From a virus, in the IMG/VR virus record IMGVR_UViG_3300028361_000081, positions 1 through 34,271 of that record: a stretch of DNA of 34,271 nt; one strand, written 5' to 3'. Numbering within the stretch: position 1 is the first letter of the stretch; every line of letters begins with the position of its first letter. A program made the position numbers and the translations under genes. The notes beneath the pieces are model-generated. The model was not told where the DNA came from. It did no database searches and saw only the letters and a list, made by a program, of their open reading frames with translations. Shown piece by piece: positions 13,139-34,271 of this stretch.

Positions 13139-13188
13139 TCGCGCCTGTATCCGGCTACCCAATACGCACCCGCTTACCGACTGTCTGC

Positions 13189-13686: not shown

Positions 13687-13709
13687 TTAGAAACTTGCTA
13701 GACTAGACG

Positions 13710-13985: not shown

Positions 13986-13988
13986 GCT

Positions 13989-14522
13989 ATGCGTAAACGC
14001 CGCTCAGATTCCAAGCTCTACAGCCTGCCCGAAAAAGCACAGCGCGACATACACGCGCTCGCTGAATCCGGAACGCTGGCAGATGCCTGCGCACAGATCG
14101 CGCTGCCTATCGAGACGGATGGCTACGAGATCGACGTTTCGGAAAGCACGCTTAGCGGCTTTTGCAAACACTGGCGTGCAGTCATCTTTCGCGAGTCACT
14201 GCATGAGGGCGCGGCGGTCGCGGCTGAAGTGGACGGCGCTCTTAGTGACGCGCAACGCGATCAGATCGACCAAGCGACGGAGGACGGGCTGCGCAGCTGG
14301 GTGCTGGACTCCATCGTGGCCAAGACGATCTCGGCCAAGGAGGTAAAGAGCATCATGGGTGTGTTGATCGCCAGCAAGAAGACGGAGCTTGATGAGCGTA
14401 AATTTAACGAGGCGCTGAAGAAGGCGGCCTGGGTGGATAGCCTCAAAGATAAAGCCAACACTCAAGGCAAACTAACCGCTGCTGATGTGGCCGATATGGA
14501 GAAGCAACTGAAACTACTTTAA
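13989..14522 (+). CDS. Small terminase subunit candidate (Mu gp27/DUF3486-like)
   Basis: A 177-residue helical protein. The N-terminal half carries a DNA-binding-like region (YSLPEKAQRDIHALAESGTL, then VSESTLSGFCKHWRA), the rest is a chain of charged helices ending in AADVADMEKQLKLL. This is the usual layout of DUF3486 small terminases: helix-turn-helix plus a coiled oligomerisation part. It is immediately upstream of the large terminase, with the TAATG junction giving translational coupling. In transposable phages this subunit recognises the packaging start near the phage end rather than a cos site. Confidence 0.8.
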   Translation: MRKRRSDSKLYSLPEKAQRDIHALAESGTLADACAQIALPIETDGYEIDVSESTLSGFCKHWRAVIFRESLHEGAAVAAEVDGALSDAQRDQIDQATEDGLRSWVLDSIVAKTISAKEVKSIMGVLIASKKTELDERKFNEALKKAAWVDSLKDKANTQGKLTAADVADMEKQLKLL

Positions 14523-15922
14523 TGGCTAAACGACTTCCAGATCATGCAAAGGGCTTTCGTGGCCGGGCGAAGAACATCCCCGAGCGCGATACCTTCATGC
14601 TGCCTTACCAGACTCGCTGGATTAAGGATGCGTCGATCATGCGTATCATGGAGAAAAGTCGCCGTGTGGGCGTCTCGTATGCGACGGCCTATGACATCGT
14701 GCGCTCGCATTCGGTGGATACGAATCTCTCTGACAGTTGGGTGAGCTCACGCGACGAGCCGACTGCCAAGCTCTTTCTCCAGGACTGCAAGAAGTTTGCA
14801 GGCGTCTTTAAGATCGCTGCCGACTCGCTGGGTAAGCAAGTGATGGACGACAAGGGCAACAGCGCCTATGTGCTAAGGTTCGCCAACGATACGGACATCA
14901 ACTCAGTCGCTTCCAATCCCGACGTGTTTGCGGGTAAGGGCGGTAATGTTGTGCTTGATGAGTGGGCACTGCGCCAAGATCCGCGTGCGGTGTATGCCAT
15001 CGCCTCGCCTGCGATCGACTGGGGAGGCCGTCTCTCTGGTATCTCGACGCACCGGGGATCGGGTAACTTCTTTAACAAGCTGATCCAAGAGATCAAGCAT
15101 GGGGGCAACCCTAAGAACTTCTCGCTGCACACGGTCACGCTCCAGGACGCGCTCGATCAGCACTTCCTCTGGAAGCTCCAGACGAAGCTTCCTGATGGCG
15201 ATTCGCGCCTCGATATGGACGAGGCGGAATACTTCGACTACCAGCGCAGCCGCGCGGGAAGTGAAGAGAGCTTCCTGCAAGAGTATATGTGCGTGCCGGC
15301 AGATGATGCTAGCGCCTTCCTTCCCTTTGAGCTTATCGATGCCTGCACTTACGATGTCGCTGAGCAGTGGCAATACTCGGTAGCTAAGCTCGCTGATAGT
15401 GGCAACGATCTGTATCTCGGTGTAGACGTGGGTCGCACAAAAGACCTTACCGTGATGTGGCTTATCGAGAAGGTGGGCGGCGTCGCGTTCACGCGGCACA
15501 TTATAGAACTACAGGGGCAGACCTTTAGCCAGCAAGAGAGCTACCTTTACGAGCTGCTTAGATTGCCACGTATGCGCCGCTGCTGTATCGACTCGACTGG
15601 CCTCGGCATGCAGTTCGCCGAACGTGCGCAAGAGAAGTTTGGTAAATACAAAGTGGAGGCCGTGCGCTTCAGCGGCCCGGTGAAGGAAGAGCTAGCCTAC
15701 CCCGTGCGCAAGGCGTTTGAGGATCGAGCGATCCGCATACCCGCCAATCGCGAGATCGAACTCGACCTGCGCAAAGTCCGCAAAGAGACGACGAGCGCAG
15801 GTAACATTCGATTCACTGCCGATGCCGACGACTCTGGCCACGCGGATAGATTTTGGGCAGTCGCACTCGCACTTCATGCGGGCAAGCAAATCAACACACC
15901 CGCCGAGTGCATCCTCATCTAA
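14522..15922 (+). CDS. Large terminase subunit (Mu gp28-like ATPase-nuclease)
   Basis: A 466-residue packaging motor. The ATPase part has a Walker A-like KSRRVGVSYATA (about 45-56), which is the deviant form common in these terminases, and Walker B GNVVLDEWAL (141-150) with D146 and E147. The C-terminal RNase H-like nuclease has LYLGVDVGRTKDLTVMWLIE with D302 and CCIDSTGLG with D357. It begins at the ATG overlapping the stop of the small subunit. Packaging by headful from the left end would include adjacent host DNA, as in Mu, but that is inferred from family. Confidence 0.93.
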   Translation: MAKRLPDHAKGFRGRAKNIPERDTFMLPYQTRWIKDASIMRIMEKSRRVGVSYATAYDIVRSHSVDTNLSDSWVSSRDEPTAKLFLQDCKKFAGVFKIAADSLGKQVMDDKGNSAYVLRFANDTDINSVASNPDVFAGKGGNVVLDEWALRQDPRAVYAIASPAIDWGGRLSGISTHRGSGNFFNKLIQEIKHGGNPKNFSLHTVTLQDALDQHFLWKLQTKLPDGDSRLDMDEAEYFDYQRSRAGSEESFLQEYMCVPADDASAFLPFELIDACTYDVAEQWQYSVAKLADSGNDLYLGVDVGRTKDLTVMWLIEKVGGVAFTRHIIELQGQTFSQQESYLYELLRLPRMRRCCIDSTGLGMQFAERAQEKFGKYKVEAVRFSGPVKEELAYPVRKAFEDRAIRIPANREIELDLRKVRKETTSAGNIRFTADADDSGHADRFWAVALALHAGKQINTPAECILI

Positions 15923-15930
15923 CTTTCCCC

Positions 15931-16089
15931 ATGATTCCAACAAGCCATTTAAACGCCCGTAGCGGCCTCGACCCCAAGACTCGCACACAGAGCCGCGATC
16001 TCTGTGCGGACGATTTTGCAATATGTTTATGTCAGTTTGCAAAGGGGTCTCGTATCCAGCCATCAACGACGGAGGGTGCAGATGTCTAG
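15931..16089 (+). CDS. Short unknown ORF overlapping the portal gene start
   Basis: A 52-residue frame (opening MIPTSHLNARSGLDPKTR) in the 159-base gap between terminase and portal; the TAG overlaps the portal start. No domain is seen. It has an ATG close to the terminase stop but no clear ribosome site, and could be noise or a small coupling peptide that leads ribosomes to the portal start. Confidence 0.35.
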   Translation: MIPTSHLNARSGLDPKTRTQSRDLCADDFAICLCQFAKGSRIQPSTTEGADV

Positions 16090-18214
16090 TATCCTCAAAA
16101 AGTTCAGTAATTGGCTAAAGCAGAAGTCTGGGGCTAGCTACTTCAACCGATTCAACGATACGTCGTCGACCTCGGGCAATCAGCTAAGCCGCGCCTATGC
16201 AAATTCAGTGTGGGTGATGCGAGCGATCAAACACGTCGCAGGCCCGATTTCTAGCGTGCCGCTGAATCTCGAAGTGCTGGGTGACGATGGCAATGTCGCA
16301 ATCTCCGATAAGCGTATTCAGCGTTTTTGGCAAAACCCATTCCTCGGCCTTAGCTATTTTGACGGCATTGAGGCGACTGTATGCTGGCTCAAGTTGGAGG
16401 GCGATTGCTTCTGGTTTGCCGATGATTCGCTCTTGATTCCGTTTCCGGACGTGGCCGCGCCTTCGAAGCTACTGATTGCCGGCCCTGATAATGTGCGCAT
16501 CGTCAAGGATGGCGATGAGGTGATCGGCTATGAATACACATCGAAGAAAGGCAAACGCACCTACTTCACTCCCGAGCAATCGTGGCACCATAAATTTTTT
16601 AATCCTTACGACACGGCGCGTGGCCTCGGCGAACTGAGCGCAGTCAAAATAGCTGCTGAGAGCGATTACCTAGCAGGCAACTTTCAGCGCAACTTGAACC
16701 GTAGTAACGGCGATCAAGGCGTCTACGTGATCTCTAAGAGCGGCATCACTGATGACAAGCAACGTGAGCAAATCACCGCGCAACTACGAGCCAAGCAACG
16801 CGCCAACCAGCGCGGCGAGGCTAAGGTCGCTTTCCTAAATGGTGGCGACATGACTATCGAAGATCCTAAAGTGCGCACTCCAGATGCCGCCTTCCTCGCA
16901 GGTCGCTTTGCAGATCGCGAGGAGATCTACATCGGGCTCGGAGTGCCTGCCTCGATGTCGAGCAAGCAGGCGAGCTACAGCATCGGCTCTGCCTCCGACC
17001 GCTATGCACTGATCGAAGAGACGTGTAAGCCCACTGGCCGCAAGATCTGTGAGGGTGTTGATTTTTTTACGCAAAAGCTCGTCGACGGAACAGCGACGGT
17101 GCAGACCTCGCTGGAGTGGGATGAACATAGCACCATGCAAGAAGTGCGTGCTGAGCGCCTCAAATCTGCCGACACACTGTGGTCGAAAGGTGTGCCCATG
17201 TCAGTGATCGATGAGCATCTACGCCTCGGTATGCCAGACTACGCGGGTAAGGACATCGGCTATTTACCCTTTAGCGTCGCGCCAGTCGGCACGGTCGAAG
17301 ATCCAAAGACGGACACGAAGCTTGCGGAGAAGCAGGCACCTACCGCGCGGCGCCTCAAAGCATTTGATGAGATGGTGGCCGCTTTAACTTCCCCCATCAC
17401 GAAAGCCGACGAAGCCACCGACGAGCCAGATGAGGGCGAACAGTTTCAAGCCGACCGCAATAGTAAAGAGGTCAAGCTATGGGAGATGCACATGCGCTCG
17501 CGTGCGGCCTCGATCAAACGCTACCGGCAAAGCTTTAAGCGTGTGCTCATGGCAGCGCGCGCCGAAACGCTCGCCAACCTCGACCGCCTAACTGCGGAGG
17601 GCAAGTCTCTCCAGACTAAGGCGGCTGCATCTGATTTCGTGTTCGACCTCGAAGTGTTTCGCAGTGCGTTTTTCGGAGCGATGCGCAAGTCAGCGCAGAC
17701 CGCGCTGAACGATGGCGGCATGCAGGTATTCAAGGAGCTGGGTAAAGATGATGTGTTTACTATGCCGCCTGAAGAAGTGCTAATGTTTATCCAGGAGCGT
17801 AAGAATCTGCTCAAGGGCATACCTGACCAAGTGCACCGCACCATCATGAGTAGCATCGAAGAGGGCATTCAGAACGGCGAGTCGATGGCCAAGCTTGCAG
17901 GCCGTGTTAAAGGCTCTTTTAACGCCATTGAAAGCAGCCGTGCGCTAACGATCGCGCAGACTGAAACGGGCGCGGCCTATGGCACATCACGCCAAGCCTC
18001 GATGAAGCAAGCCGGAATAAAGCGCAAGAAATGGCTGACCTCTGGCAATGGAAATGTGCGTGCCACCCACCGTGCGGCCAATGGCCAAAAGGTGCCACTC
18101 GACGAAGATTTTGACGTAGGTGGTAGCGCGTTATCTCACCCCTGCGATCCTGCTGGAGATCCCAGCGAAACCATTAACTGCCACTGCGTCTCTATTGCAG
18201 TGATTGAAGATTAA
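16082..18214 (+). CDS. Portal protein fused to a MuF head-morphogenesis domain
   Basis: A 710-residue protein from the ATG at 16082, preceded by acggagggtgcag, a good Shine-Dalgarno site. The N-terminal ~430 residues read as an HK97-type portal: YANSVWVMRAIKHVAGPISS, SWHHKFFNPYDTARGLGELS, and GLGVPASMSS. After an acidic linker (DEATDEPDEGEQ), a charged helical part leads to a C-terminal MuF domain: ALTIAQTETGAAYGTSR, KRKKWLTSGNGNVRATHRAA, and a closing pair of cysteines in ETINCHCVSI. In Mu the portal (gp29) and F protein (gp30) are separate, so this is a fusion. It should form the portal vertex with the MuF domain as a minor internal or neck component. Confidence 0.92.
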   Translation: MSSILKKFSNWLKQKSGASYFNRFNDTSSTSGNQLSRAYANSVWVMRAIKHVAGPISSVPLNLEVLGDDGNVAISDKRIQRFWQNPFLGLSYFDGIEATVCWLKLEGDCFWFADDSLLIPFPDVAAPSKLLIAGPDNVRIVKDGDEVIGYEYTSKKGKRTYFTPEQSWHHKFFNPYDTARGLGELSAVKIAAESDYLAGNFQRNLNRSNGDQGVYVISKSGITDDKQREQITAQLRAKQRANQRGEAKVAFLNGGDMTIEDPKVRTPDAAFLAGRFADREEIYIGLGVPASMSSKQASYSIGSASDRYALIEETCKPTGRKICEGVDFFTQKLVDGTATVQTSLEWDEHSTMQEVRAERLKSADTLWSKGVPMSVIDEHLRLGMPDYAGKDIGYLPFSVAPVGTVEDPKTDTKLAEKQAPTARRLKAFDEMVAALTSPITKADEATDEPDEGEQFQADRNSKEVKLWEMHMRSRAASIKRYRQSFKRVLMAARAETLANLDRLTAEGKSLQTKAAASDFVFDLEVFRSAFFGAMRKSAQTALNDGGMQVFKELGKDDVFTMPPEEVLMFIQERKNLLKGIPDQVHRTIMSSIEEGIQNGESMAKLAGRVKGSFNAIESSRALTIAQTETGAAYGTSRQASMKQAGIKRKKWLTSGNGNVRATHRAANGQKVPLDEDFDVGGSALSHPCDPAGDPSETINCHCVSIAVIED

Positions 18215-19007: not shown

Positions 19008-20363
19008 ATGAAAAATCGTAAATTCTCTCCTTTCTCTTTTGGGCAACGCATGTTCTACGCATGCTGCCTGCGCTTCTGCCTCGGCATCACTGATGATGAA
19101 TTCAAGACTAAGGTCCTCGGCGGCGTGGGCGAACTCAAGTCTGCCCAGGAAAAGCAGGGCGAAGACCTCGTGACCATCAAGACGCAGACCGATCAGCTTA
19201 CGGATAACTACGATCAGCTCGATCAGGACACCAAGAAAGCGTTCGAAGAACTGACTAAGGTTAAAAACGAGTGCAACTCGATCAGCGACATCAATCAAAA
19301 ACTGCGCAAGGTGCAGTTGCAGTTGGGCCGCGAACGCTCGATGGCGTTTGGCGATCCGGTAAAGGCGCTTGTCGGCAACGAAGAGCTGCGCGCCCGCATC
19401 AATGCCGCTGTCCGCATGGCTGCCAGCAATGGAGCCGACATGCACAGCGTCGCAAAGAGCATCATGAGTAAAGCGCTGGGTGAAGACTCGGCGCCAGGCT
19501 CGAACTACATCAACGCCGAACTCGCAGCCGAGATCTACGACACCCTCGCCAGCTATGGCGTGTGGAACACCTTCTCGGTGCGTCGTATGAGCACCAAGCA
19601 GTCCAAGCTGATCGTAAACACGGCTCGCCCTGAAGCGTATGTCATCCTGCAAGAAGGCGGCACGATTCCTGACGATGCGAACAAGGCCGGCACAACTGTC
19701 ACTCAAGAAGCTGAGATCATCGCAGTGTTACTCAATGTCTCCATGCAACTGCTCGAAGACAGTGAGAGCGACATCGCCGAAGAGGTGATGCGCGACTTCA
19801 TGGAGGCCTTCGCCTTCCGCCTCGACTATTTGACGCTCCGCGCAAATGGCACCGCCGATGCGACTAATGGTGGCATGACAGGTGCCTTCGAGTTCGGCAC
19901 CGCCGCCGTGGCCGCCGCTGGTAATACCACGATGGAGACGCTCGACCTAGAGGACGTCACGAACTGCATGCTCTCGGTCGATCCTGCCGTGCTCGCCCGT
20001 CCGTGCCGCTGGTGGCTCAATCCGCAGATCCTTGTGCGCATGTTGCACATCAAGGATGGGAACGGTCGCCCGATCTTCCTCACAGCGACGGAGGCTCCGA
20101 CAGCAGGCGGCATCGGCTCCATCCTCGGCTACCCGACTACGCTCGCACATGCCGCGCCCAATGCAAATGGGGCAGGCTCAAAGGTCGCCACCTTTGGCGA
20201 TCCGGGTGCGCTCAGCGTCGGTGTGCGCACCGACTATAAGTTCGAGAGCAGCGATCATCACAAGTGGAGCGAACTGCAACGCAGCTATCGCGGCCATGGC
20301 CGTGCCGCCGTCAAGGGCCGCCGCGCTCAAGGTCTCGCAGTCCTCACGACTGCTGCCAGCTAG
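19008..20363 (+). CDS. HK97-fold major capsid protein
   Basis: A 451-residue protein with the standard two-part layout. The first ~110 residues are helical and charged (TQTDQLTDNYDQLDQ, then DTKKAFEELTKVKNECN), the delta or scaffolding domain that the protease upstream would remove. From about residue 150 the HK97 fold follows: the E-loop region SVRRMSTKQSKLIV, EAYVILQEGGTIPDD, a spine helix DIAEEVMRDFMEAFAFRLDY, and the A-domain LGYPTTLAHAAP with FGDPGALSVGVRTDYKFESS. The N-terminus has an unusual hydrophobic Cys-rich start (MFYACCLRFCLGI), which would be lost on maturation. Confidence 0.94.
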   Translation: MKNRKFSPFSFGQRMFYACCLRFCLGITDDEFKTKVLGGVGELKSAQEKQGEDLVTIKTQTDQLTDNYDQLDQDTKKAFEELTKVKNECNSISDINQKLRKVQLQLGRERSMAFGDPVKALVGNEELRARINAAVRMAASNGADMHSVAKSIMSKALGEDSAPGSNYINAELAAEIYDTLASYGVWNTFSVRRMSTKQSKLIVNTARPEAYVILQEGGTIPDDANKAGTTVTQEAEIIAVLLNVSMQLLEDSESDIAEEVMRDFMEAFAFRLDYLTLRANGTADATNGGMTGAFEFGTAAVAAAGNTTMETLDLEDVTNCMLSVDPAVLARPCRWWLNPQILVRMLHIKDGNGRPIFLTATEAPTAGGIGSILGYPTTLAHAAPNANGAGSKVATFGDPGALSVGVRTDYKFESSDHHKWSELQRSYRGHGRAAVKGRRAQGLAVLTTAAS

Positions 20364-21873: not shown

Positions 21874-22635
21874 ATGACTACTACACTCGAACAGACTCAA
21901 GACTTGATCCTAGATTGCTTAAAGGCCGTTCCCGCATTTGCTGGTCACCAGGTTACCTGGGTGTCGCGCAAAGAGGGCAAGGTTTTAAACGACATAGATG
22001 CCGGGCGCTCGCGCCTATCACTCGCCTGCTTCGTTTACCCAGTCGCGCCGACTGGGTGTAATCCAAATCTGCAAGGCCCTGTTTTTGATAAGCTCCAGCT
22101 GCGCGTAACTTGGTTTGAAAACTTCGAACTCAACCACGATGCATCGCTCCATGCAGATGCAGCCGCTCTCTTAACCCTGCAAGCGCTCCATCAGTATGGA
22201 GTCATCGCAGATGGCCTACACATGATCACAGTTCAAGAGCAAGGCCCTATGGAGTGGAGCCTTACGAAACAGGGGCTGCAACAATGGGATTGCTGGTTCA
22301 ACTGCCAGCTCAGTCTGCCTCAAGTTCCCCGCGCCCCAAAGCCAACCATCGCCTACGATCTCGCTGCCGAGCAAGTCACCATCAACTGTCGCGACGCAGA
22401 CGCCTCCATCTACTACACGACAGACGGCACGTTTCCTTTCCCGGAAAACCCAGCGCGCACGATCTATAACGCCCCCGTCACATTCGGCGGCGTGATCGTC
22501 ACCCATGAAGATCGCATCGTGACCACCGAAAACCCATTCGACGCCGACAGCTCAACCGAGATCCGCGCCATCGCGATCCGCACCGGCTACCTGCCTAGTA
22601 ATCTTAAATCAATCACACTCAGTCAAATCGCCTAA
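21874..22635 (+). CDS. Tail-completion-like protein with a C-terminal chitobiase/FN3-like domain
   Basis: A 253-residue protein. The N-terminal ~150 residues occupy the tail terminator position and have a helix-strand layout (QTQDLILDCLKAVPAF, then KLQLRVTWFENFEL). The C-terminal ~90 residues form an Ig-like sheet of the chitobiase C-terminal type: KPTIAYDLAAEQVTINCRD, then ASIYYTTDGTFPFPENPART. That domain is usually found on secreted carbohydrate-active proteins and cell-surface proteins; on a tail protein it could decorate the tail or bind glycans. Order and spacing support the tail role. Confidence 0.75.
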   Translation: MTTTLEQTQDLILDCLKAVPAFAGHQVTWVSRKEGKVLNDIDAGRSRLSLACFVYPVAPTGCNPNLQGPVFDKLQLRVTWFENFELNHDASLHADAAALLTLQALHQYGVIADGLHMITVQEQGPMEWSLTKQGLQQWDCWFNCQLSLPQVPRAPKPTIAYDLAAEQVTINCRDADASIYYTTDGTFPFPENPARTIYNAPVTFGGVIVTHEDRIVTTENPFDADSSTEIRAIAIRTGYLPSNLKSITLSQIA

Positions 22636-22965: not shown

Positions 22966-23877
22966 ATGAGCCTAGACAGAACCAAAATCCTACGCGGCCC
23001 CTGCAAAATCGCCTTCGCTGGCGAGACCTTTTACAGCCGTGCCGACGTCACCGTCAAATTCTCCACGCCACTCTTTGACAAGTCGTCGGCAGCCTACGGC
23101 CGTCACGGCCAAGGCGTCGAAGACAAGCTGATCGAAGTCTCCTTCACGCCCGTCACCTACACCGCCGCGCAAGCCGCCGTGCTCTGGCCGCATGCCAGCA
23201 CCGCAATCGGAGCCAGCATTTATGGCGCAGTCGATACGCCCTGCGTGATCACTCCCATCACGGGCCAGCCGCTCACACTCGCCAATGCCGCCGTTACCAG
23301 TATGAGCGACCTCGCTTTTTCGCCTATCCAAGGGTTCTGGGCAGGCGATACCACGCTCACCGGCCTGCTCGCTAATAATGCCGATCCGTCCGCGATCGCC
23401 AGCTACTACGCATGGGGCGCAGCCGCCTCTGGAGTCGATATATCCGCGCAGTGGGATGCAGCCAAAGATCTCTACCTGCCCTTCACGGCAGCCTATAACA
23501 CCGCCACTTGGCAGGCCATGGAAGGCTTTAAAGTGAGTGCCAATCTCAACCTAGCCGCCGTCAAAGTCGACGCGCTCGGCACCGTCGATATGACGCTCTC
23601 CGCGCACAACCCCACCTGCACCTTCAAGCCAGCGGGCAAGAACGAACTCGACCTCGAAGCACTCACAAACTTCGGCCTCGCCATCGGCTCTAGCCAAGCC
23701 CTCAAAGACATCGTGCTCGCAGGCCCCGACAGTGGCGACCTCAGCTTCACGCTCGCATCCGTCACCCCTGGAGCCGATCAAGATCGAGTCTATGGTAACG
23801 AGGCAGACCGCATCGGCGAACTCACTCTGGAGAGCCAAGCCATAAGCCAACGCTATGCGTTCGGCACGGTTTCCTAG
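22966..23877 (+). CDS. Major tail tube protein candidate
   Basis: A 303-residue beta-rich soluble protein starting LDRTKILRGPCKIAFAGETF, a start like tail tube proteins of several siphophages, and with VKFSTPLFDKSSAAYGRHG and SAHNPTCTFKPAGKNELDLE. It is abundant in small and hydrophobic residues and lacks a signal peptide. Length and position (after tail completion, before the tape measure) fit a tail tube with an extra surface domain. I cannot exclude that it is another structural protein. Confidence 0.75.
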   Translation: MSLDRTKILRGPCKIAFAGETFYSRADVTVKFSTPLFDKSSAAYGRHGQGVEDKLIEVSFTPVTYTAAQAAVLWPHASTAIGASIYGAVDTPCVITPITGQPLTLANAAVTSMSDLAFSPIQGFWAGDTTLTGLLANNADPSAIASYYAWGAAASGVDISAQWDAAKDLYLPFTAAYNTATWQAMEGFKVSANLNLAAVKVDALGTVDMTLSAHNPTCTFKPAGKNELDLEALTNFGLAIGSSQALKDIVLAGPDSGDLSFTLASVTPGADQDRVYGNEADRIGELTLESQAISQRYAFGTVS

Positions 23878-23946: not shown

Positions 23947-24444
23947 ATGCGCCTCGTTTTTCAGACCGTCGAACTATCCGCCGGGGGCAAAGGCTCCCCG
24001 GTCGGATTGTCCGTGGGAGGGCAGAAGCAAATCGATACCGCTAGTTTCTTACGCGCCGCAGAGGGCAAGGTCTTTGACCGGGGCAATAAAATCTACCAGC
24101 TCAGCTGGCAGCAACACCGTGAGTTTGCGACCGTTGGCGAGTGCGAATCATTTATCCTACTGCACGCCGCCAACGCTCCCGACGGAGAGGGCACCTGCAC
24201 CATCACTACCGAGGGCGGCGCAACCATCACGCTCACTGGAGCGGTGCTACAAGTGCCGAAATCCGACAAACAAGTCGGTGCCAGCGTCTGGCACAACTAC
24301 GAGCTCGTCGCCAGCGGCATGACAGGCGCGGTGCCTAGTGCGCTCAATCCAAATGGTAGCGAGGTCAATCCTCCAATTAACAATGCAGTCACTCACAATG
24401 GCGAGACCGTCACCCATGACGGCCAAACCGTCACTCACTCCTAA
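23947..24444 (+). CDS. Unknown tail-module protein
   Basis: A 165-residue protein: a beta-rich N-terminus (MRLVFQTVELSAGGKGSP), then YQLSWQQHREFATVGECESF and ATITLTGAVLQVPKSDKQV, and a C-terminal tail with HNGETVTHDGQTVTHS repeats. The middle reads like small tail proteins that help tube or tip formation. The last ~20 residues are a tandem pattern of VTHxGxT, which could be a flexible tail. It starts without a clear Shine-Dalgarno site right after a repeat-filled gap. Confidence 0.7.
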   Translation: MRLVFQTVELSAGGKGSPVGLSVGGQKQIDTASFLRAAEGKVFDRGNKIYQLSWQQHREFATVGECESFILLHAANAPDGEGTCTITTEGGATITLTGAVLQVPKSDKQVGASVWHNYELVASGMTGAVPSALNPNGSEVNPPINNAVTHNGETVTHDGQTVTHS

Positions 24445-24472
24445 CTCACGCTTAAACGCTCTTTAACCGCTC

Positions 24473-25123
24473 ATGAAAACACATTTATCCATCTTTGCAG
24501 CGCTCATCATTAGCATTGCCAGTCTACACTCAGCCGACCTCACCACCATCCTTGAGGACATCGACCTTTCGCCAACCGGCACATGGGATTTTACGGGTGG
24601 CACGATCTCGGTCAACGATGCAGACCTCCCCAGCACGCTACTACGCGCCGATCAAGTCCCCGACCTCGACGCCTATCAGCTGCTATTTGCTGGCGTGCCC
24701 TCATTTGACTGGGCAACGCGTCAGACTTACGGCCCGGCGGGCATACTCGACCCGCGCCTCGATTGGTCCGCTCGCATCCTCTCCGGCGCGTGGACGATCG
24801 ATAGCGCCAGCGTCTCAGGACTTACCGTTCTCAGCTCCATCAATCTACCGCCTGACTCTATCGTCCGCACCCATATCGCAGACGATGCAGTCGGCCCCGC
24901 GCAACTAGACCAGCTCGGCAACTACACAGCGACGTCGCTCAGCCTCACCGACGTGCTTCGTCTGAGCGACATCGATGCCGATCCCGCAAATCCCGCTCCT
25001 GGCGAATCCGTCATCTGGCTATCCAGTGGCGCAGGCTCAGGCAGTGCCGGCGATCTCATGATCAAAGTCAACTCAGGCGGCACCACTAAAACCATCACCA
25101 TCGTCGATTACTCGGCTAACTAA
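24473..25123 (+). CDS. Secreted tail-fibre-like protein
   Basis: A 216-residue protein with a Sec signal peptide (MKTHLSIFAALIISIASLHS) and a likely cut before ADL. The mature part contains IADDAVGPAQLDQLGNY, a pattern frequent in tail fibres, and a C-terminal domain SGAGSGSAGDLMIKVNSGG of a type I associate with adhesion or tail proteins. A signal peptide on a virion component is unexpected, as tails assemble in the cytoplasm. It is the first of three consecutive genes with signal peptides. It may be an exported adhesin or lysogenic factor instead. Confidence 0.75.
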   Translation: MKTHLSIFAALIISIASLHSADLTTILEDIDLSPTGTWDFTGGTISVNDADLPSTLLRADQVPDLDAYQLLFAGVPSFDWATRQTYGPAGILDPRLDWSARILSGAWTIDSASVSGLTVLSSINLPPDSIVRTHIADDAVGPAQLDQLGNYTATSLSLTDVLRLSDIDADPANPAPGESVIWLSSGAGSGSAGDLMIKVNSGGTTKTITIVDYSAN

Positions 25124-25156
25124 TCTGCATTCAACCAATCCAATCAAAATAAAATT

Positions 25157-25513
25157 ATGAAACGTAAATACCTACGCCCGTTAATCCTCCTCGTCGCAGT
25201 CAGCATGACCGCGCTGCACGCTAATTTTATCATGCCGCTCTCAGAGCCGATCACACTCGAAGCACCCGTAATCGAAGAGCTTGAGCTAGTCTCTGTCCGC
25301 ATTTTCCCCGGCGAAAAACGTATCGAGGTCGTCGCCACGGCCGGTGCTGAAACTATCGTGGTATCCAAGACGGGCGCCGCTTACGACGCGATCATCGCGC
25401 AGATCGATGTCGGCATGTTGATCGGCGTCTTTTTACCAGAGCTTCGCGAAGCCGCTGCCGCTAAATTACAAGCACCGACGCTGCCAATCGCCCCCACGAC
25501 ACCCAACCCCTAA
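25157..25513 (+). CDS. Small exported protein of unknown function
   Basis: A 118-residue protein. The signal peptide is MKRKYLRPLILLVAVSMTAL ending LHA, then a mature part PLSEPITLEAPVIEELELVS and RIFPGEKRIEVVATAG, which reads as a short beta-sandwich. No fold is recognised. It is flanked by two other exported proteins and has an A-rich, Shine-Dalgarno-less start (ataaaattATG). It may be a periplasmic chaperone or subunit of the large protein that follows, 9 bases downstream. Confidence 0.75.
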   Translation: MKRKYLRPLILLVAVSMTALHANFIMPLSEPITLEAPVIEELELVSVRIFPGEKRIEVVATAGAETIVVSKTGAAYDAIIAQIDVGMLIGVFLPELREAAAAKLQAPTLPIAPTTPNP

Positions 25514-25522
25514 TCTCAGACA

Positions 25523-28276
25523 ATGCGCCAGCTATACGCCACCATCCTACTCCTCGGCCTCTCCGGGCTGAGTGCATTTGCGCTCAACTCGGTAGAGGTC
25601 ACTGGCCCTGCTAACACGCTGATCGCTCACGATCAAACGCCCGCCGCCGTCGATGGCAACGTATGGGCAGGGTTTAGCAGTGCCGTCTGGGAGGTGCGTT
25701 TTACCGACGTGCCTAACGTCAACATCGCCACACCGCCCACGACGGTCGATGGCCGCAATGGCAGTGCGGGCGCTCCAGGTTGGACTCAAATAACTGCGAG
25801 CGATGCAGGCTGGAACATGACTAACTTTGCCCAGCTCATCACAGGCGATTTTAGGGATGTCACACTCAGCACACCGTTTCGGTCTGGCCGCCCAAAGGGG
25901 ACGCGCTCAGAGATCTACGAACGCGGTCTACGCATCCCGCTAGTCATCCACTACCACCCCGAGCCCGATGCGACAGCCGTCGAGTCGCTGATCCGAGTCT
26001 ATATAAACGGTGGGTGGGGCACTAGAATCGGCGATGGTTATCGCCCTGCGCAATTTGATTTACGGCTCTCACTCACGCCGCCGGCCTACGATGTTGCTGA
26101 ATTTGCGCTCACAGCACTGCCCAGCGCGCCGCTCACCAGTCCGCACGCAGTGGCCATCACTGATGCGCCTGGTCTCGCAAAGCTGTCAATCGCTGGCACC
26201 GCCGCCATCGAGCATGCCGGGAGCCGAGTCTATCTGCGTTATCGCAAAATCGACCTTCAGGGTGCGCGGTGGACACCATTTGCACCGATCGCAACAGTCA
26301 GCTCAACAGGCACCTGGAGCGGATCGCTACCCACACCCAGCGCCGTCGAGGTCGAGCTAGACTTTATCCTAGCAACCGACGATGGCCAATATCGCCAACA
26401 TGTATCCAGCACTCACCTGCTCACACTAGAAGATAAGACAGATGGCGACTATGCTGACAAAGCCGGCGATCTCGTCGCCAATCTACTCAAACGCGCTTGC
26501 GGTGTCCCGCTCACGACTCGCATCGGCGGTTCGGCTAGTCTGACCACGCCGACACCAGTCACCATCGATGGCGAGACCTACATGGCCATCACCTACGAGA
26601 TCGACCCCACGCAGACAGACCTACTCGTCACGCCCGAGTGGTCGCCAAACTATCGCGTATCACCATTCCGCGCAGGCGGCGTCGTCCGCGAACTCATCTC
26701 CACAGATGTCATCACTGGCCTCACGACATGGCGAGCCCGCGCACCGTATCCGAGCCGCGAAGGCTACATGCGCCTGAGTGTGCAAAAGATCTCAGCAAAT
26801 AAGATCGTGCCACCGCCTCTCACTGGCCCGCTCGCCATCGCCGCAGAGATCGCACCGGCAACCGTCCTTATCTCTCCCAGCAATGTTGTCGAGACTCGAC
26901 TGGACGATGTCGTTTACAATGAGACAATCGCCTCATCGAGCTACAACGGCGGCCGGATCATTACCCAGGCACCTACCGTCACCGCGCTCGATCCGAGCAT
27001 CGCCACGCTCGATGCTCAGCTCAATATCGTGCGAGTCTCCGACGGTGTTGCCCGATTTGAGGCAGATGCATTTGGCGTTAAAAAGATCGTCGAGCAAGAT
27101 GTGACCGCGATCAACGGCAGCGAGACCGGCACGACTTACACTCGCCGCATTGAGGGCTCACTCGCTGGCTACCTGATCCGCTCCATCGACTCACGTATCG
27201 ATGGCAGTTCGACACTCGCCGATAATGGATTCGTGTTCGATACTCAAAACCACAGCACACAAACCTATGTGCGCAACACAGACTGGTGGGCGGCGGATGC
27301 CGACTTTACCGCAGTCAGCCCGTGGAATAGTAACAACGCCAACCATAAGGCCGGCACGCTCATCACACCGAGGCACTTTATCAATGCCGCCCATTTTCAG
27401 ATCGCCGTGGGCAAGGTCATTAGATTCATCGCTCAAGATGGCACCGTGCACAATCGCACGATACTATCCCGCAAGCGTCACCCGTCCTACGTGCCGTATC
27501 GCCCCGATTTTACGCTCTATACGCTAGATGCCGATCTCCCATCCGCAATCACACCCATGCAGATTTTGCCAACCGATTGGGCAGATTACTGGAGTCCTGA
27601 TAATATGCGGGCTCACGTCCGCGCCCCTGGTTGGCGGTTCGACCAAGAAGAGAAAGGCCTCATCGCCGATGCCAAACCAATCCAAGGTCGCACCTGGAGC
27701 CATCAATATCCAACCGACCCCGACCGTTTAAAATTCGGCGAGGCCATCATCCTCTACGATAGCGGCAATCCAGCCGGCATTCTACTCGGCGATCTCCCCG
27801 TGCTCACGACTGTGTGGACTGGAGGCGGTCCGGGAAGCGGCACACCGACGGGCGGCATGGTCAGCAACACCGGCCTCAGTATGGAGGCCGATCTAAACAA
27901 CATGATCATCGCCAGTGACAACATCGCCAACGTGTCCGGAGTCGCCAACACCAGCTGGCCCAACAGCGGAGGCCACTACCAAGTCAAGACCGCCGATTTT
28001 TCCGACTGGCCAAACTTCGCGACTGATAACTACCTCTTCGAATCAGGCAACGAGAGCGGCCTCTACGTGGAGCGAGGCCTAGTCAACGGCAAGCAATCCT
28101 ACCGCATGGCGCTCGATGACGCCAATTACAACCTCCTCACCTGGACCGGCACCCGCTGGCAAGTCGATCAGTATATAGGAGGCACTCTCGACGGCACCCG
28201 CTCAACATCCACCTCAGCCGTCGCCACACCCGACCTAGCCACATTCACCGGCAATTACTCATTCGTTAATCCATAA
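25523..28276 (+). CDS. Large secreted protein with a trypsin-like serine protease domain
   Basis: A 917-residue protein with a Sec signal peptide (MRQLYATILLLGLSGLSAFA). The N-terminal ~550 residues look like several beta-sandwich domains. The C-terminal part carries a trypsin-like pattern: GTLITPRHFINAAHF with H624, YRPDFTLYTLDADL with D662, and IILYDSGNPAGILLGD with S747, in the usual order and spacing; the usual GDSG is changed to YDSG. The final ~130 residues (ending ATFTGNYSFVNP) form a beta-rich tail. A secreted protease inside the tail module could degrade host surface layers, act as a tail-associated depolymerase after export, or be cargo. The tail position is clear; export is odd. 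Confidence 0.85.
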   Translation: MRQLYATILLLGLSGLSAFALNSVEVTGPANTLIAHDQTPAAVDGNVWAGFSSAVWEVRFTDVPNVNIATPPTTVDGRNGSAGAPGWTQITASDAGWNMTNFAQLITGDFRDVTLSTPFRSGRPKGTRSEIYERGLRIPLVIHYHPEPDATAVESLIRVYINGGWGTRIGDGYRPAQFDLRLSLTPPAYDVAEFALTALPSAPLTSPHAVAITDAPGLAKLSIAGTAAIEHAGSRVYLRYRKIDLQGARWTPFAPIATVSSTGTWSGSLPTPSAVEVELDFILATDDGQYRQHVSSTHLLTLEDKTDGDYADKAGDLVANLLKRACGVPLTTRIGGSASLTTPTPVTIDGETYMAITYEIDPTQTDLLVTPEWSPNYRVSPFRAGGVVRELISTDVITGLTTWRARAPYPSREGYMRLSVQKISANKIVPPPLTGPLAIAAEIAPATVLISPSNVVETRLDDVVYNETIASSSYNGGRIITQAPTVTALDPSIATLDAQLNIVRVSDGVARFEADAFGVKKIVEQDVTAINGSETGTTYTRRIEGSLAGYLIRSIDSRIDGSSTLADNGFVFDTQNHSTQTYVRNTDWWAADADFTAVSPWNSNNANHKAGTLITPRHFINAAHFQIAVGKVIRFIAQDGTVHNRTILSRKRHPSYVPYRPDFTLYTLDADLPSAITPMQILPTDWADYWSPDNMRAHVRAPGWRFDQEEKGLIADAKPIQGRTWSHQYPTDPDRLKFGEAIILYDSGNPAGILLGDLPVLTTVWTGGGPGSGTPTGGMVSNTGLSMEADLNNMIIASDNIANVSGVANTSWPNSGGHYQVKTADFSDWPNFATDNYLFESGNESGLYVERGLVNGKQSYRMALDDANYNLLTWTGTRWQVDQYIGGTLDGTRSTSTSAVATPDLATFTGNYSFVNP

Positions 28277-28284
28277 TCCCAAAA

Positions 28285-28590
28285 ATGAACACAGCAACCA
28301 TCCAACTAGACGGCAAAACCGTCCCCCTCACATTCGACAAGCACGCAAGATTTCGCTACGGCGTTTTCGGCCTCAGCTTCTCCGCGCTCCTCGAATCAGG
28401 CACCGACTACGCCGCCTCGCTAATCCTCATCTGGGCCGCGCTCCCCGATGCCGAGCGCGAAACGTATCCCACGCCCGAATCCCTAGTCGACGTCATCGAC
28501 ACCGATGCCACCGAGATCTTCGAGCCCGTCTTCAACGTCGTCGCTGGGATCGGATGGCTCGTAGGTGCATCCGATAGCTCTGCGCAGTAA
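28285..28590 (+). CDS. Tail assembly chaperone candidate
   Basis: A 101-residue acidic protein directly before the tape measure, the standard position. The sequence IQLDGKTVPLTFDKHARFRY then a helix and ATEIFEPVFNVVAGIGWLVG matches the general pattern of tail chaperones. I see no slippery site that would give the frameshifted longer form. Confidence 0.75.
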   Translation: MNTATIQLDGKTVPLTFDKHARFRYGVFGLSFSALLESGTDYAASLILIWAALPDAERETYPTPESLVDVIDTDATEIFEPVFNVVAGIGWLVGASDSSAQ

Positions 28591-28610: not shown

Positions 28611-30770
28611 ATGTCCGCACGCGATATACTTATAAAAATTCTCACCAAGGGCGATAGCTCTGGAAGTGAGAAGGTTGGCCAGTCGTTAGATCAACTCGGC
28701 AAAAAAGCAACCGCAGTCGGTAAGACTCTATCGCTCACGCTGACCGCGCCCCTTGTCGGCCTCGGTGCTATCTCCGCGAAGTTTGCGGCAGATGCCAACG
28801 AGTCGCTGTCGAAGCTAGAAGCCGTCTTCGGTCAGCGAGCCGATGCAATGAACCAGTGGATTGCCAAGCTACGCGAAAGCGTGCCGGCAACAACGGCGGA
28901 GATCCAAGACCTGGTCTCAGGGACACAGGATTTATTAGTGCCTTTAGGCATGGCCGATTCAGAGGCCGAGGAGATGACGAAAAGCATCGTAACCCTAGCC
29001 GGTGACCTTGCCTCCTTTAATAACATCCCAGTCGCAGAGGCCCTAGCCAAGATCCGCTCAGGCCTAGTTGGGCAATATGAGCCGCTCCTGCAATTTGGAG
29101 TCGCGCTCAACGCAGGCACCGTAAAAGCCAAAGCATTCGAGCAAGGCATCGGCGATGGTAAACGCGAATTAACTGCATCTGAGAGAGCGCTGGTCAGTTA
29201 TAAGCTAATCCTCGAAGGCACTAGTAAAGCACACGGTGACGCCGAAAAAACCAAAGGCAGCGATGCCAATGCCGCCAAGTTCTTACTTAAGGAATATACA
29301 GAGCTGGCCACGGTCCTGGGGCAATCGCTATTGCCTGCAATCAAGCCCGTCGTCACTGCTCTGACGGATGTCGCGAAAGCAGCCCAAGATTTGTCGCCGG
29401 GCATGCAACAATTAATTGTAGGTGTCGGAGCGCTTGCGGCGGGGGTAGGCCCTTTACTTATTGGACTGGGAGCGATGGCGAGAGGTTACACCGCCATTGC
29501 TGCGGTCACGCCAAAAGCAGTCGCAGGGATTCGCGCAGTCGGTCTCGCCGCCAAAACAGCTGCGCCATACCTCGCCGCGCTCGCCGCAGGCTACGCAGTC
29601 GGCACCGCCATCGATAAGCACTTCGACGTGTCGGGAAAAATTGCCGACATGTATGGGAAAATCGGCCAAGGCGAAAGAGATCGCCAGGCGGCACTCTCCA
29701 AATCTTACGGTTCAATTCGCGACCAGGTCATGGCCGTCGAGAATCTCGCGCAACAAGAGGCCACGCACAAGCAACTCGTCGAATCTACAGGCGCACTACA
29801 AGCGTCACTTGCCGCCGCCCGGAAAAAGGGCGATGACGACGCCGTCCGAGACCTCCAGCAGCAACTACAACTCACACAGAATCTGTTTGGGATCCTCGGT
29901 GGCATACTCGACGCCAAAAAAGAAACCGCAGCTGCCGAGCAAGACAGTCTCGCAGCCGCCGAACAGCTCAAAGCCAGTGCGTTCACACAATGGCAAGCCG
30001 AGCAAAAGATCGAAGACTCCCTTACCCGCCAAGAAAAGATCCAGCGCTTCATCAACGGCCTCGGCGAAGAAGGCCTCGCCACTCGTGAGGAACTCGTCGC
30101 CAAACTAGAGCGCGAAAACGCACTCCTCGACGCCAGAATCTCCGGCGACCCCGCCGCACTCAAAGACGCCGAAGACGCCATCGCCATCGAGCGCGAACGC
30201 CAAAGCCTCCTCGCCACCGGAGTCGTCAGTCAAGAAGAAGCCGCCAAAGTCGCCAAAGAGCGCATCGCCAAAGAGCGCCAAGCAGCTGCCGAAGAAGAGA
30301 AGCGCCGCAACGCCCCGCCCAAAGATCCCGTCGACAACACCGACCTAACCCAGCGCATCGCCCTAACCCGCGAACTAGGCCAAGCCGAACAACAGCAACG
30401 CCAACTCCGCGAAGGCGTCACCACTCGCGATTTCATCGATTTAGACGGCACCAAAAAACAAGCCTTTTTCGAAGGTGGTAAGCGCCTAGGCGACAGCGAT
30501 GATTTTGGCCGCACAACCGACCCCGTTCGCCAACCTGGAGGGCAGGGGTCCACCCCTGCCGCGCCCCCGCAGCAACAACCCACCGCCCCCGCAGCAACCG
30601 CCCCACAATCCCCAAACACCCAGCCCCCCGATCTCTCTCCAGTCAGCGCCGCCGTCTCCGCCGTCAGCCTAGACCTCAGCCCCGTCCTAGCCGCCATCGA
30701 GTCCATGGCACAACGCCTCCAACAACAAATCGACAACAACGCCAGCCGCATCGATCAGATCGGCAACTAG
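28611..30770 (+). CDS. Tail tape measure protein
   Basis: A 719-residue protein. The N-terminus is helical with the typical start KVGQSLDQLGKKATAVGKT, then a TP901-type tape measure pattern (NNIPVAEALAKIRSGLVGQY and SYKLILEGTSKAHGDAEKT). Hydrophobic segments lie at about residues 265-325. A long charged coiled coil follows (EEAAKVAKERIAKERQAAAE), then a Pro/Gln-rich segment with an embedded hairpin repeat (30541-30560) and a final coiled helix (AQRLQQQIDNNASRID). At ~720 residues a tail of about 100 nm is expected from the usual ratio, which is inference. Confidence 0.93.
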   Translation: MSARDILIKILTKGDSSGSEKVGQSLDQLGKKATAVGKTLSLTLTAPLVGLGAISAKFAADANESLSKLEAVFGQRADAMNQWIAKLRESVPATTAEIQDLVSGTQDLLVPLGMADSEAEEMTKSIVTLAGDLASFNNIPVAEALAKIRSGLVGQYEPLLQFGVALNAGTVKAKAFEQGIGDGKRELTASERALVSYKLILEGTSKAHGDAEKTKGSDANAAKFLLKEYTELATVLGQSLLPAIKPVVTALTDVAKAAQDLSPGMQQLIVGVGALAAGVGPLLIGLGAMARGYTAIAAVTPKAVAGIRAVGLAAKTAAPYLAALAAGYAVGTAIDKHFDVSGKIADMYGKIGQGERDRQAALSKSYGSIRDQVMAVENLAQQEATHKQLVESTGALQASLAAARKKGDDDAVRDLQQQLQLTQNLFGILGGILDAKKETAAAEQDSLAAAEQLKASAFTQWQAEQKIEDSLTRQEKIQRFINGLGEEGLATREELVAKLERENALLDARISGDPAALKDAEDAIAIERERQSLLATGVVSQEEAAKVAKERIAKERQAAAEEEKRRNAPPKDPVDNTDLTQRIALTRELGQAEQQQRQLREGVTTRDFIDLDGTKKQAFFEGGKRLGDSDDFGRTTDPVRQPGGQGSTPAAPPQQQPTAPAATAPQSPNTQPPDLSPVSAAVSAVSLDLSPVLAAIESMAQRLQQQIDNNASRIDQIGN
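30541..30560. repeat. Hairpin repeat inside the tape measure gene
   Basis: Arms ggcaggggt and acccctgcc around a 2-base centre, in frame, encoding GGQGSTPAA in the Pro-rich linker. It resembles dispersed palindromes of the ggcagggg-type seen in several genomes. Confidence 0.7.
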
Positions 30771-30813
30771 CATTTCAGTGTTTTAGCGTTTTAAAATTTT
30801 AGCATTTTACTAC
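30771..30813. repeat. Tandem ttttagc low-complexity filler between tail genes
   Basis: Units ttttagcgttttaaaatttt and ttttagcatttt fill the whole gap between tape measure and tail-tip genes. No Shine-Dalgarno site is seen for the next ATG (ttttactacATG). Another interspersed low-complexity repeat. Confidence 0.7.
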
Positions 30814-32730
30814 ATGGCAATATCCAACATCTGGCAAATAAACGACGCCACATTCAGCACCCGCAACCTCGAAGGCGCATCGCTCCAGGTAGTCACCCAA
30901 TCCCCCGACGTGCTCAGCTGCACACAGGCCAACGCCTACGATGCCGACCCCGAGTTCGCCTACGGCTCAATCGTCACCGTAAAACGAGGCACTGCACAAT
31001 GGTTTAAAGGCACCTGCACCGCCATTTCCAGACGCGGCACCGGCACCTCCGAGCGCATCAACTACCAAATCAGCGGCCCCTGGTGGCAGCTGCAAAAAGT
31101 CATCTATCGCCAAGATTTCACTCGCATCGTCGGCACAGAGTCCGCGACCGTGGCCGTCGCTAAACTGATACTAGGCACCGACTCCGAGGGCGAGCGGATC
31201 AACTCCGGTCAGGTCATCACTGACGTAGTGAATTACGCCATCGTGCAGCTCGGCTCAGCCGCACTATTTCAGCTGGGCGCTGTCCAGGTAACGACCCAAA
31301 TGCCGTATGAGGAGTTGACCGCTCTAAGCTGCGCTGAGGTCATCACTCGATGCCTCCGCTGGAATCCCGATGTAGTCGCGTATTTCGACTATTCCACCAC
31401 AGTTCCCACACTTAATTTCAAACGTCGATTAAACCTCACCTCACAGACTCACGCGCACGTAGACGTCACGATAACAGATGCCAGCATCAACCCGCGCAAC
31501 GATCTCCAAGTGGACGGCGTCGTTGTCCAATACGAGCGCACCGATACCGTCGACGGCAACCCCAGTAAAGGCGTCATAACTGAGTCCGCAGGGGTAATCA
31601 CTGACCCGACCAAAACACTGTATTTCTTTTTTGATTTACAAGGCGCCAGCGTGTCATTTAACCGTCAAAAAGTGAGCACTGAAAGTATTCAAGAGGGCTC
31701 CGCAAATTGGTGGTCGAAACGTCACCCAAAACTCAAAGGAGCGACAGGCGTGAGTGTAGCCAACGATGGCCAATCCGCAGTCGACGACGATGGCGAAAAC
31801 GATGGCACCAGCTACAGTAAAGAGCTCATCTCCGGATCTATTGCCGACTGGATGGGCGGCGTCGGCACCTGCGCTCAAATCGTCAAGGCAGACGTCACCT
31901 ATACCCCCGATGGTGGCACCTCAAAAACCGAGACCCTACGCCTCCAAGTTGTCGGCACAAATGCCAATAATCAGACCTATCAAACTGTCAGCAGCGCGAC
32001 CGCCGCTGAGCCTAAACCAGTCGACCTCGCAAACTCCATACTCAGCGGCCTAGCCGTCCTGCAATACGAGGGTCAAGTCGTGCTCACCGAGGCCGATGCC
32101 GGAAGCGCAACACACATCGATAAGCGCATAAATCTAGACGGAGGCCGCCAAGAGTGGTCATCCATGAATGCCCAAGTCTACCGCGTCAATTACGCGCTAG
32201 ATACTGGCGCAACTCAAATAGCATTCGGTCCCGCGCAACACCTAGGCGCAAACGACCTTTTCCAGCTCCACAGAAATGTCCGCACCCGCAAGGCCTCGAC
32301 CGGTTCCTCCCGCGCACAAATCGGCGGCAGTGGCCAAGATCTCCCCACCCGCAGTCCCAACACCACCACCGCCGACGACGGTGGTGGAGCCGCCGAAACG
32401 CGCCCGCTAAACGCCTATAAATCCAGCACTGGAAAACTAAAGGTCGAGCCCGGCACAGTCGCCGGTCAATCAGTCACCGGGACGAACCTCGAAGTCAGCT
32501 ACGCCATCGGAAATAAGGCATGGGTAAAGCTCACTCGTAACAGTTCAGGAGTTGCCACCGCCGCCGCGATGACCGCAGTCGATCCAGGCGCAGATTCAGC
32601 CACCCAAGCCAGCCAACTCGTCTACGAAATCCAAGATGATGGATCTGCTAATCCAGTCATCAAAAACATGCTCAGCGGCTCTCAAAACGTAGACAGCTGC
32701 GGAGCCGATCACTCTTGGAATCTAATCTAA
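30814..32730 (+). CDS. Tail tip / baseplate hub candidate
   Basis: A 638-residue beta-rich protein after the tape measure. The N-terminus WQINDATFSTRNLEGASLQV and GSIVTVKRGTAQWFKGTCTA reads like the hub domain of distal tail proteins. Middle part: LSCAEVITRCLRWNPDVVAY, then NFKRRLNLTSQTHAHVDVTI. After a Ser/Thr-rich linker near residue 490-520, a C-terminal part ends in CGADHSWNLI. The position and the alternation of beta segments support a tail tip protein; the exact family is uncertain. Its TAA overlaps the next ATG (TAATG). Confidence 0.7.
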   Translation: MAISNIWQINDATFSTRNLEGASLQVVTQSPDVLSCTQANAYDADPEFAYGSIVTVKRGTAQWFKGTCTAISRRGTGTSERINYQISGPWWQLQKVIYRQDFTRIVGTESATVAVAKLILGTDSEGERINSGQVITDVVNYAIVQLGSAALFQLGAVQVTTQMPYEELTALSCAEVITRCLRWNPDVVAYFDYSTTVPTLNFKRRLNLTSQTHAHVDVTITDASINPRNDLQVDGVVVQYERTDTVDGNPSKGVITESAGVITDPTKTLYFFFDLQGASVSFNRQKVSTESIQEGSANWWSKRHPKLKGATGVSVANDGQSAVDDDGENDGTSYSKELISGSIADWMGGVGTCAQIVKADVTYTPDGGTSKTETLRLQVVGTNANNQTYQTVSSATAAEPKPVDLANSILSGLAVLQYEGQVVLTEADAGSATHIDKRINLDGGRQEWSSMNAQVYRVNYALDTGATQIAFGPAQHLGANDLFQLHRNVRTRKASTGSSRAQIGGSGQDLPTRSPNTTTADDGGGAAETRPLNAYKSSTGKLKVEPGTVAGQSVTGTNLEVSYAIGNKAWVKLTRNSSGVATAAAMTAVDPGADSATQASQLVYEIQDDGSANPVIKNMLSGSQNVDSCGADHSWNLI

Positions 32731-34006: not shown

Positions 34007-34012
34007 CAAAAT

Positions 34013-34056
34013 ACTAAACCTCTGTCCAAAGGCACTAAACCTTCTGGCGTTCTACA
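34013..34056. other. Prophage right end (attR) with two transposase-binding-like sites
   Basis: Two inverted copies of the end site: actaaacctctgtcc at 34013-34027 and cactaaaccttct at 34033-34045, with cores 21 bases apart, like the adjacent R1 and R2 sites of Mu. The terminal CA at 34056 stands 15 bases from the outer core, matching the left end. Confidence 0.75.
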
Positions 34057-34235
34057 GCGGCACGATCACTGGCGAACATGGAGTCGGCCTTGCCAAACGA
34101 AAATTCTTACCCACTCAATTCGACGCGGGTAGCTACGCCCTACTCTCTAAGATCAAAGGCTCACTCGATCCGCATAATCGACTCAACCCTGGTAAAATCT
34201 TCGACCTCGATCTACGACCTGTCGATCATGGATAA
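34057..34235 (+). pseudogene. 3' remnant of a host FAD-linked oxidase (GlcD family), cut by the prophage
   Basis: About 59 codons that begin right after the prophage end with SGTITGEHGVGLAKR, the hallmark C-terminal motif of GlcD/lactate dehydrogenase-type FAD oxidases, then SLDPHNRLNPGKIFDL and a stop at 34235. The upstream part of the gene would have to lie left of the prophage. The 18 left-flank bases are compatible in one frame (LATRF) with this family but are too short to prove it. The gene is therefore disrupted unless the N-terminal part still works. Confidence 0.85.
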
Positions 34236-34271
34236 GCCAAAAAAACTTCACTTAGAGACGATGGACTACTC
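34228..34271 (+). CDS. Start of the next host gene (partial)
   Basis: An ATG that overlaps the end of the oxidase remnant opens a frame MDKPKKLHLETMDYS to the window edge. The overlap suggests an operon with the oxidase. Only 14 codons are present, so function cannot be given. Confidence 0.4.
   Translation, partial: MDKPKKLHLETMDY

Follow-up and report, generated by a model that had tools for sequence, protein, structure and literature searches.

In the window, the whole of IMG/VR virus record IMGVR_UViG_3300028361_000081 (34,271 bases), three consecutive genes lie between the putative tail tube and the tape measure, a stretch hereafter called the slot, and their products all open with leaders resembling Sec/signal peptidase I (SPase I) substrates. 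The interpretation that we put first, at slightly short of an even chance, is that these genes form the receptor-binding (fibre) module of a B3-like Verrucomicrobiota siphophage, and that their products would be exported via Sec, to be added to the tail beyond the inner membrane. The identity of the module and the presence of export signals are well supported by sequence comparison; from these we infer actual export, its timing, docking on the virion, and the activity and target of a protease.

Protein 1 (216 amino acids (aa); 24473-25123, + strand) has a leader at residues 1-20 followed by a short, perhaps fibre-like protein, as its slot and look weakly suggest. Protein 2 (118 aa; 25157-25513, +) has a leader at residues 1-22 and is otherwise a small protein without known relatives, while protein 3 (917 aa; 25523-28276, +) combines a leader at residues 1-20 with a long N-terminal part, a trypsin-like domain (residues ~545-800) and a C-terminal domain (~826-917). 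The bounds of the three open reading frames (ORFs) are exact, and each opens with ATG at the ORF start. Leaders were called with a home-made heuristic based on a positive n-region, an uncharged h-region and an AxA-like site. On all three proteins it detected an n-h-c arrangement whose AxA-like site falls near residue 20, and the leaders were assigned as MKTHLSIFAALIISIASLHS (followed by AD), MKRKYLRPLILLVAVSMTALHA (followed by NF) and MRQLYATILLLGLSGLSAFA (followed by LN). For protein 1 the heuristic favours a cut between SIA and SLHS, and the cut between LHS and AD is a judgement. Shuffles of residues 2-40 matched the native score in 0/2000 cases for protein 1, 16/2000 for protein 2 and 3/2000 for protein 3, and 0.6% of random 45-mers of phage composition were called as leaders. 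With all three called against such low null rates, the signal peptides proposed for genes 24473, 25157 and 25523 by the initial annotation are borne out. Among the genes tested from the terminase to the right end, leaders were found on proteins 1-3 alone, and the counts for the window are 3/5 slot genes vs 0/12 other late genes; elsewhere in the window, among genes tested, the heuristic calls only gene 12656, which is lipoprotein-like and situated in the presumed lysis region.

Sequence searches of proteins 1-3 in Pfam, PHROG and PDB gave nothing useful: proteins 1 and 2 had no family match in Pfam or PHROG, and protein 2 had no homologue among the relative loci compared. The mature start of protein 1 resembles a leader-bearing slot gene of locus L023 (12/21 residues identical, pairwise E 3e-4). 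Cysteine is found once in the 1189 mature residues of proteins 1-3 vs 62 times in 5081 residues of the other window proteins compared; cysteine depletion was nevertheless dropped as a mark of export, not being significant across relatives (0.64% vs 0.80%, p = 0.22).

In related phages, large variable leader-bearing proteins occupy the same slot or, in a few cases, lie nearby. Such proteins were found in L009 (654 aa), L006 (970 aa, with a weak YadA-head match), L092 (680 aa), L095 (905 and 145 aa), L096 (1169 and 1296 aa), L102 (410 aa), L118 (1166 aa) and, as a beta-helix protein of 470 aa, in L121, a Luteolibacter marinus prophage. Two leader-bearing proteins (723 and 340 aa) stand just after the tape measure in L097, and seven consecutive leader-bearing genes (10047-17200) are placed between head genes and head-tail genes in L100. 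Longest-ORF starts were used for the main tests, since internal starts inflate the control calls (15/188); on this basis leaders were called on 15/73 slot genes vs 5/199 other late genes (p = 4e-6, this and the following enrichment p values ignoring kinship among the phages). Because part of this set had been found through a slot gene, the count was repeated on 14 Verrucomicrobiota prophage loci selected by tail-tube homology alone. Leader-bearing slot genes are present in 13 of the 14, comprising 12 identified by the caller and L174, where a leader-bearing ORF at 8545 had been dropped by the greedy gene caller. The sole exception, L172, lacks a large slot gene; it has a leader-bearing gene of the same type downstream of the tail tip. 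Within these loci leaders were called on 21/87 slot genes vs 8/186 others (p = 2.5e-6), and on 18/49 vs 3/102 when genes of at least 200 aa were considered (p = 8e-8). Across 34 leaders with unrelated cargo the n-h-c order is complete, an AxA-like site is present and the mature protein opens with a polar residue (Gln, Asp, Glu, Ala or Thr). The cleavage sites, some of them placed by eye, look SPase I-like, with Ala at position -1 in 31/34. The slot holds one to approximately seven leader-bearing genes with differing cargo. Consequently, the secreted three-part apparatus suggested by the initial annotation was rejected as a fixed unit, although L153 does have three such genes in a row, including a relative of protein 3.

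The cargo behind these leaders points to tail fibres and their attachment, and includes tail collar fibre, BppU_N, collagen and beta-helix types. The leader-bearing protein at L166 9978-11951 (657 aa) matches a PHROG tail collar fibre family (1.6e-28) and further tail families, and the mature N-domain of the protein at L176 9054 matches Pfam BppU_N above the cut-off (24.2 vs 23.1 bits); in proteins 1-3 of the window BppU_N is absent at E up to 10. At L152 8629 the leader is followed by a BppU-like stretch, collagen repeats and a trypsin-like domain. The N-domain that directly follows the leader in L096 has a leader-less counterpart in L126 (homologous at E 7e-18), and via L126 it is linked to L122, L161, L011, L021 and L006. 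Its predicted structure (predicted local distance difference test, pLDDT, 83) matches baseplate proteins of TP901-1 and 80alpha and neck proteins of Bas63 and Sf14, albeit with modest TM-scores of ~0.4-0.5. An hhalign comparison did not show the two BppU-like N-domain families to be homologous. In six loci (L161, L006, L166, L167, L170 and L171) a leader-less BppU-like adaptor gene is followed by a leader-bearing gene that overlaps it or nearly does so; in L122, adaptor and fibre are joined in a single chain devoid of a leader. Location, cargo and adaptor pairing in combination provide good sequence support for a fibre/receptor-binding slot, and hence for a receptor-binding module in the window. 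Since leaders occur on unrelated cargo and are absent from the adaptors and from nearly all other structural genes, export appears to be selected for in this slot. Of the options raised by the initial annotation, the one of tail proteins added outside the inner membrane is the one favoured by these tail-fibre and baseplate-attachment domains.

Protein 3 gives the most detailed view of such cargo. A six-frame search (E up to 1e-4) returned matches in 28 of 388 Verrucomicrobiota genomes, nearly all of them on the trypsin-like region, while back-translated pattern scans of viral and genome contigs and tblastn against phage records yielded no relative of protein 3. The trypsin-like domain had no significant Pfam or PDB-sequence match. 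A Foldseek search with its model retrieved trypsins and clotting proteases (probability 1.00, E 9e-6; local model confidence 60-90), and H624, D662 and S747 are invariant across eight aligned proteins. According to the model, protein 3 thus carries a chymotrypsin-fold domain with a complete His/Asp/Ser triad. The GDSG motif of the other seven aligned homologues reads YDSG in the window copy, and because Tyr replaces the first Gly the predicted protease activity is not certain. The C-terminal domain, the only link of the three window proteins to a tail protein domain, resembles (hhalign probability 87) a domain that L036/L098 carry as a fusion with their g23947-type tail protein. Homologues of protein 3 are leader-bearing in L152, L153, L154 and L161 as well as L173, and from internal starts in L168. 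Conversely, homologues without signal peptides, a finding that the initial annotation had regarded as speaking against its proposal, do exist for the trypsin-like protein (L149, L093 and L150), yet leaders recur widely in the slot. Since these leader-less proteins are close homologues of protein 3, export would not be needed for the domain to serve in the slot, and the leader is by sequence a swappable add-on. Relatives of the trypsin-like domain are also found in host chromosomes, some as lipoproteins, and on that ground the domain may be of host origin, possibly acquired together with a leader. The closest syntenic prophage, L149, shares with the window the tape measure (64-70%), the tip protein (54%) and the small pre-tape-measure gene (47%). 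Its reverse strand (7728-9038) encodes a leader-less slot protein with leucine-rich repeats (NQLTSFDGTGLSSLTGLYL...), an unusual cargo for a fibre slot.

The genes around the slot are those of a tail block. The initial annotation had placed the three genes between tail tube and tape measure, and the right border is confirmed, as the gene at 28611-30770 (+) matches PHROG tape measure families down to 9.5e-18. The left border, a putative tail tube at 22966-23877 (+), matched no named family; its role follows from position and from its family A4 of 12 relatives, which always lies upstream of slot and tape measure. The three genes are preceded by a small leader-less tail protein (23947-24444, +) conserved in relatives and followed, just before the tape measure, by a small leader-less gene (28285-28590, +), 47% identical to the L149 gene at the same place, whose position is that of a tail assembly chaperone. 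A leader-less protein of tail tip/hub type (30814-32730, +) matched no named family in Pfam or PHROG searches; its homologues, in L149, L152-type prophages and others, likewise follow the tape measure. As only genes 30814, 32715 and 33692 remain between the tape measure and the right end of the window, there are few other fibre candidates. The gaps from 24444 to 28285 measure 28, 33, 9 and 8 nucleotides, and the third-position GC of the three genes fits that of their neighbours; the three genes, arranged head to tail, for these reasons belong to the late operon. Promoter- and terminator-like consensus sites around them are near shuffle level, in a scan that other promoter types would escape. 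A moron cassette is disfavoured by the short gaps, the neighbour-like composition and this site scan.

Joining a receptor-binding module with export selected for in the slot leads to the following model. In the late phase the three proteins would be made alongside the products of the tail genes, pass through the inner membrane, be freed of their leaders by SPase I and fold outside the cytoplasm, while heads, tails and any adaptor would be assembled in the cytoplasm. Envelope breakdown at lysis would then bring fibres and tails together, allowing the fibres to dock on tail-borne sites. Protein 3 would display its trypsin-like domain, whose probable task is to cut or bind a protein on the surface of the next host. 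A broader version of the model, which is conceivable but which we regard as rather doubtful, is that many Verrucomicrobiota tailed phages build their particles in two compartments, with heads, tails and BppU-like adaptors made in the cytoplasm and the outer add-ons (fibres, spikes, protease-bearing fibres and perhaps decoration proteins) made in the periplasm via Sec and joined only at lysis. The accepted view is that tailed-phage virions are completed within the cytoplasm, every part being produced and put together there; two-compartment assembly, if true, would violate that rule. The recurrence of a cargo-independent export signal in the fibre slot of phages of one phylum, including a prophage of cultured Luteolibacter marinus, makes the question directly testable, the outcome being either a different assembly route or widespread secreted fibres. 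It also advises caution with annotation rules by which a signal peptide excludes a protein from the virion, and trypsin-like domains on fibre-slot proteins would represent an unusual way to meet the host surface. No earlier description of exported tail fibres in tailed phages was found in the open-access literature; one paper treats the opposite as the norm, the phage targets of diversity-generating retroelements lacking the signal peptides found on bacterial ones (PMC6199706).

Several points weigh against a fibre module attached from outside. The leader calls depend on the home-made heuristic, proteins 1 and 2 are almost without homologues, and the N-terminal part of protein 3 defied modelling (pLDDT <50), so that the attachment domains are documented in relatives and not in the window; to these are added the kinship ignored in the enrichment tests and the leader-less close homologues of protein 3. 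The proteins might instead be exported without entering the virion, as phage-encoded adhesins or enzymes that infected or lysogenic cells display or shed, and there they could mask receptors, exclude superinfection, loosen the cell surface before lysis or bring about lysogenic conversion. Exported phage-fibre-like proteins of this kind exist in Bdellovibrio (PMC10769870), the leader-bearing lom gene of lambda sits between tail genes (PMC12309495), and the host-chromosomal relatives of the trypsin-like domain, some of them lipoproteins, would also suit such a role. The late-operon position with its gaps of 8-33 nucleotides between genes of neighbour-like composition, and the near-shuffle level of promoter- and terminator-like sites, argue against this reading, as do the virion-attachment-type domains of leader-bearing relatives and the adaptor genes directly upstream of them. 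Export to a non-virion role is judged rather unlikely, though it is a serious alternative and the strongest of them.

Only slightly less likely, and also a serious alternative, is that the leaders have no role in export, being hydrophobic tail anchors, peptides that touch the membrane at infection, or relics of captured exported host genes, with the fibres assembled in the cytoplasm. Hydrophobic N-termini are indeed present on some capsid proteins of the clade and on the StopSmel tail protein at 28754 and its relatives, all virion-type proteins, and protein 3 homologues serve the same slot without a leader. However, the 34 leaders with unrelated cargo fit signal peptidase substrates and not a shared anchor, and the occurrence of leader-less adaptors beside leader-bearing fibres speaks against random relics. 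That the three leaders arose by chance or as a start-site artefact is very improbable: the heuristic does call ~2.5% of other late genes, but here the three genes are adjacent, all with ATG at the ORF start and low null rates, and the enrichment is strong in independently selected relatives. The tentative preference thus stays with exported fibres that dock on the tail.

The window itself is most likely a Mu-like (B3-like) transposable siphophage with its right end in view, as the right flank from ~34030 reads as the C-terminus of a host FAD-linked oxidase and inverted end sequences of the form TG(A/G)ACAGAG...GGTTTAG occur at 1-40 and 34010-34271. An extra copy is located near 160 (155-180), and no matching target-site duplication was seen at the window ends. 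The gene at 3926-6226 is a putative transposase by position and look only; it had no match in a Pfam scan. The large terminase (TerL, 14522-15922), which is ~52% identical to the TerL proteins of Pseudomonas phage B3, Sinorhizobium phage StopSmel and Microcystis phage Mwe-Yong1, is accompanied by a portal with a Mu F-like domain (gene 16004), a capsid protein (gene 19008), a head-tail adaptor (gene 20676) and a neck-type protein (gene 21352). A neck-region protein at 21874-22635 has a C-terminal chitobiase/Fn3-type domain (PF13290, 1e-10) that is retained in several relatives. Capsid relatives occur in the genomes of Luteolibacter marinus (isolate), Akkermansiaceae and Verrucomicrobiales metagenome-assembled genomes (MAGs) and one Desulfobacteraceae MAG, and from these the host is most likely verrucomicrobiotan.

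Hydrophobic or leader-like segments were also observed outside the slot. A membrane-like stretch precedes the conserved part of the major capsid proteins of L121, L124, L009, L042, L023, L028, L125, L151, L008 and L095 and, weakly, of the window (19008-19110); it could reflect membrane-associated capsid assembly or wrong start sites. Outside Verrucomicrobiota phages, signal-peptide-like or hydrophobic N-termini are found on StopSmel (L004) 28754-31549, annotated 'tail protein', and on its relatives at L105 14807-18076 and L116 17434-19998. A small signal-peptide gene (110-225 aa) stands right after the capsid gene region in L152 (5004-5393), L166 (6560-6952), L171 (6079-6756) and L176 (5656-6036), and on the reverse strand of L167, L174 and L175; its product is possibly an exported head decoration protein. 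On the reverse strand of L100, 8258-8878 encodes a protein that has a leader-like segment and weakly matches the head decoration family Phage_cement_2 (E 0.002, below cut-off).

Among known systems, B3 and StopSmel have the same order of head, neck and tail genes as the window, with TerL 52% identical, but their fibre genes follow the tail hub and only small genes separate the major tail protein from the tape measure, whereas the window has large variable leader-bearing genes before the tape measure. The mosaic adhesive trimers (MATs) of Bdellovibrio (PMC10769870) are likewise phage-fibre-like, with a signal peptide and then a beta-rich N-domain; they are encoded by the bacterium, which deploys them itself, and often bear an S74 tip, whereas the genes described here lie inside a phage tail operon. 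The domain comparison with MATs covered S74 only: Pfam scans gave no match to this tip, which many MATs also lack. Lambda Lom (PMC12309495) is similarly encoded by a leader-bearing gene in the tail region of a temperate phage, but it is an outer-membrane beta-barrel expressed in lysogens, while the proteins described here are large, resemble fibres or proteases and are encoded between tail tube and tape measure; no window protein had a Pfam match to the Lom-type outer-membrane barrel family. With trypsin-like serine proteases protein 3 shares the predicted fold and the His/Asp/Ser triad, and it differs from typical members in that the domain sits in a fibre-slot protein and has Tyr for the first Gly of GDSG. 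As in BppU-type proteins (PF10651; TP901-1 ORF48, PDB 4V96 and 3UH8), relatives of the window carry BppU_N (L176) or that fold (A3 family) as an adaptor or a fibre N-terminus. Unlike in those systems, a signal peptide stands here before the fibre and, in L096 and L176, before the attachment domain itself.

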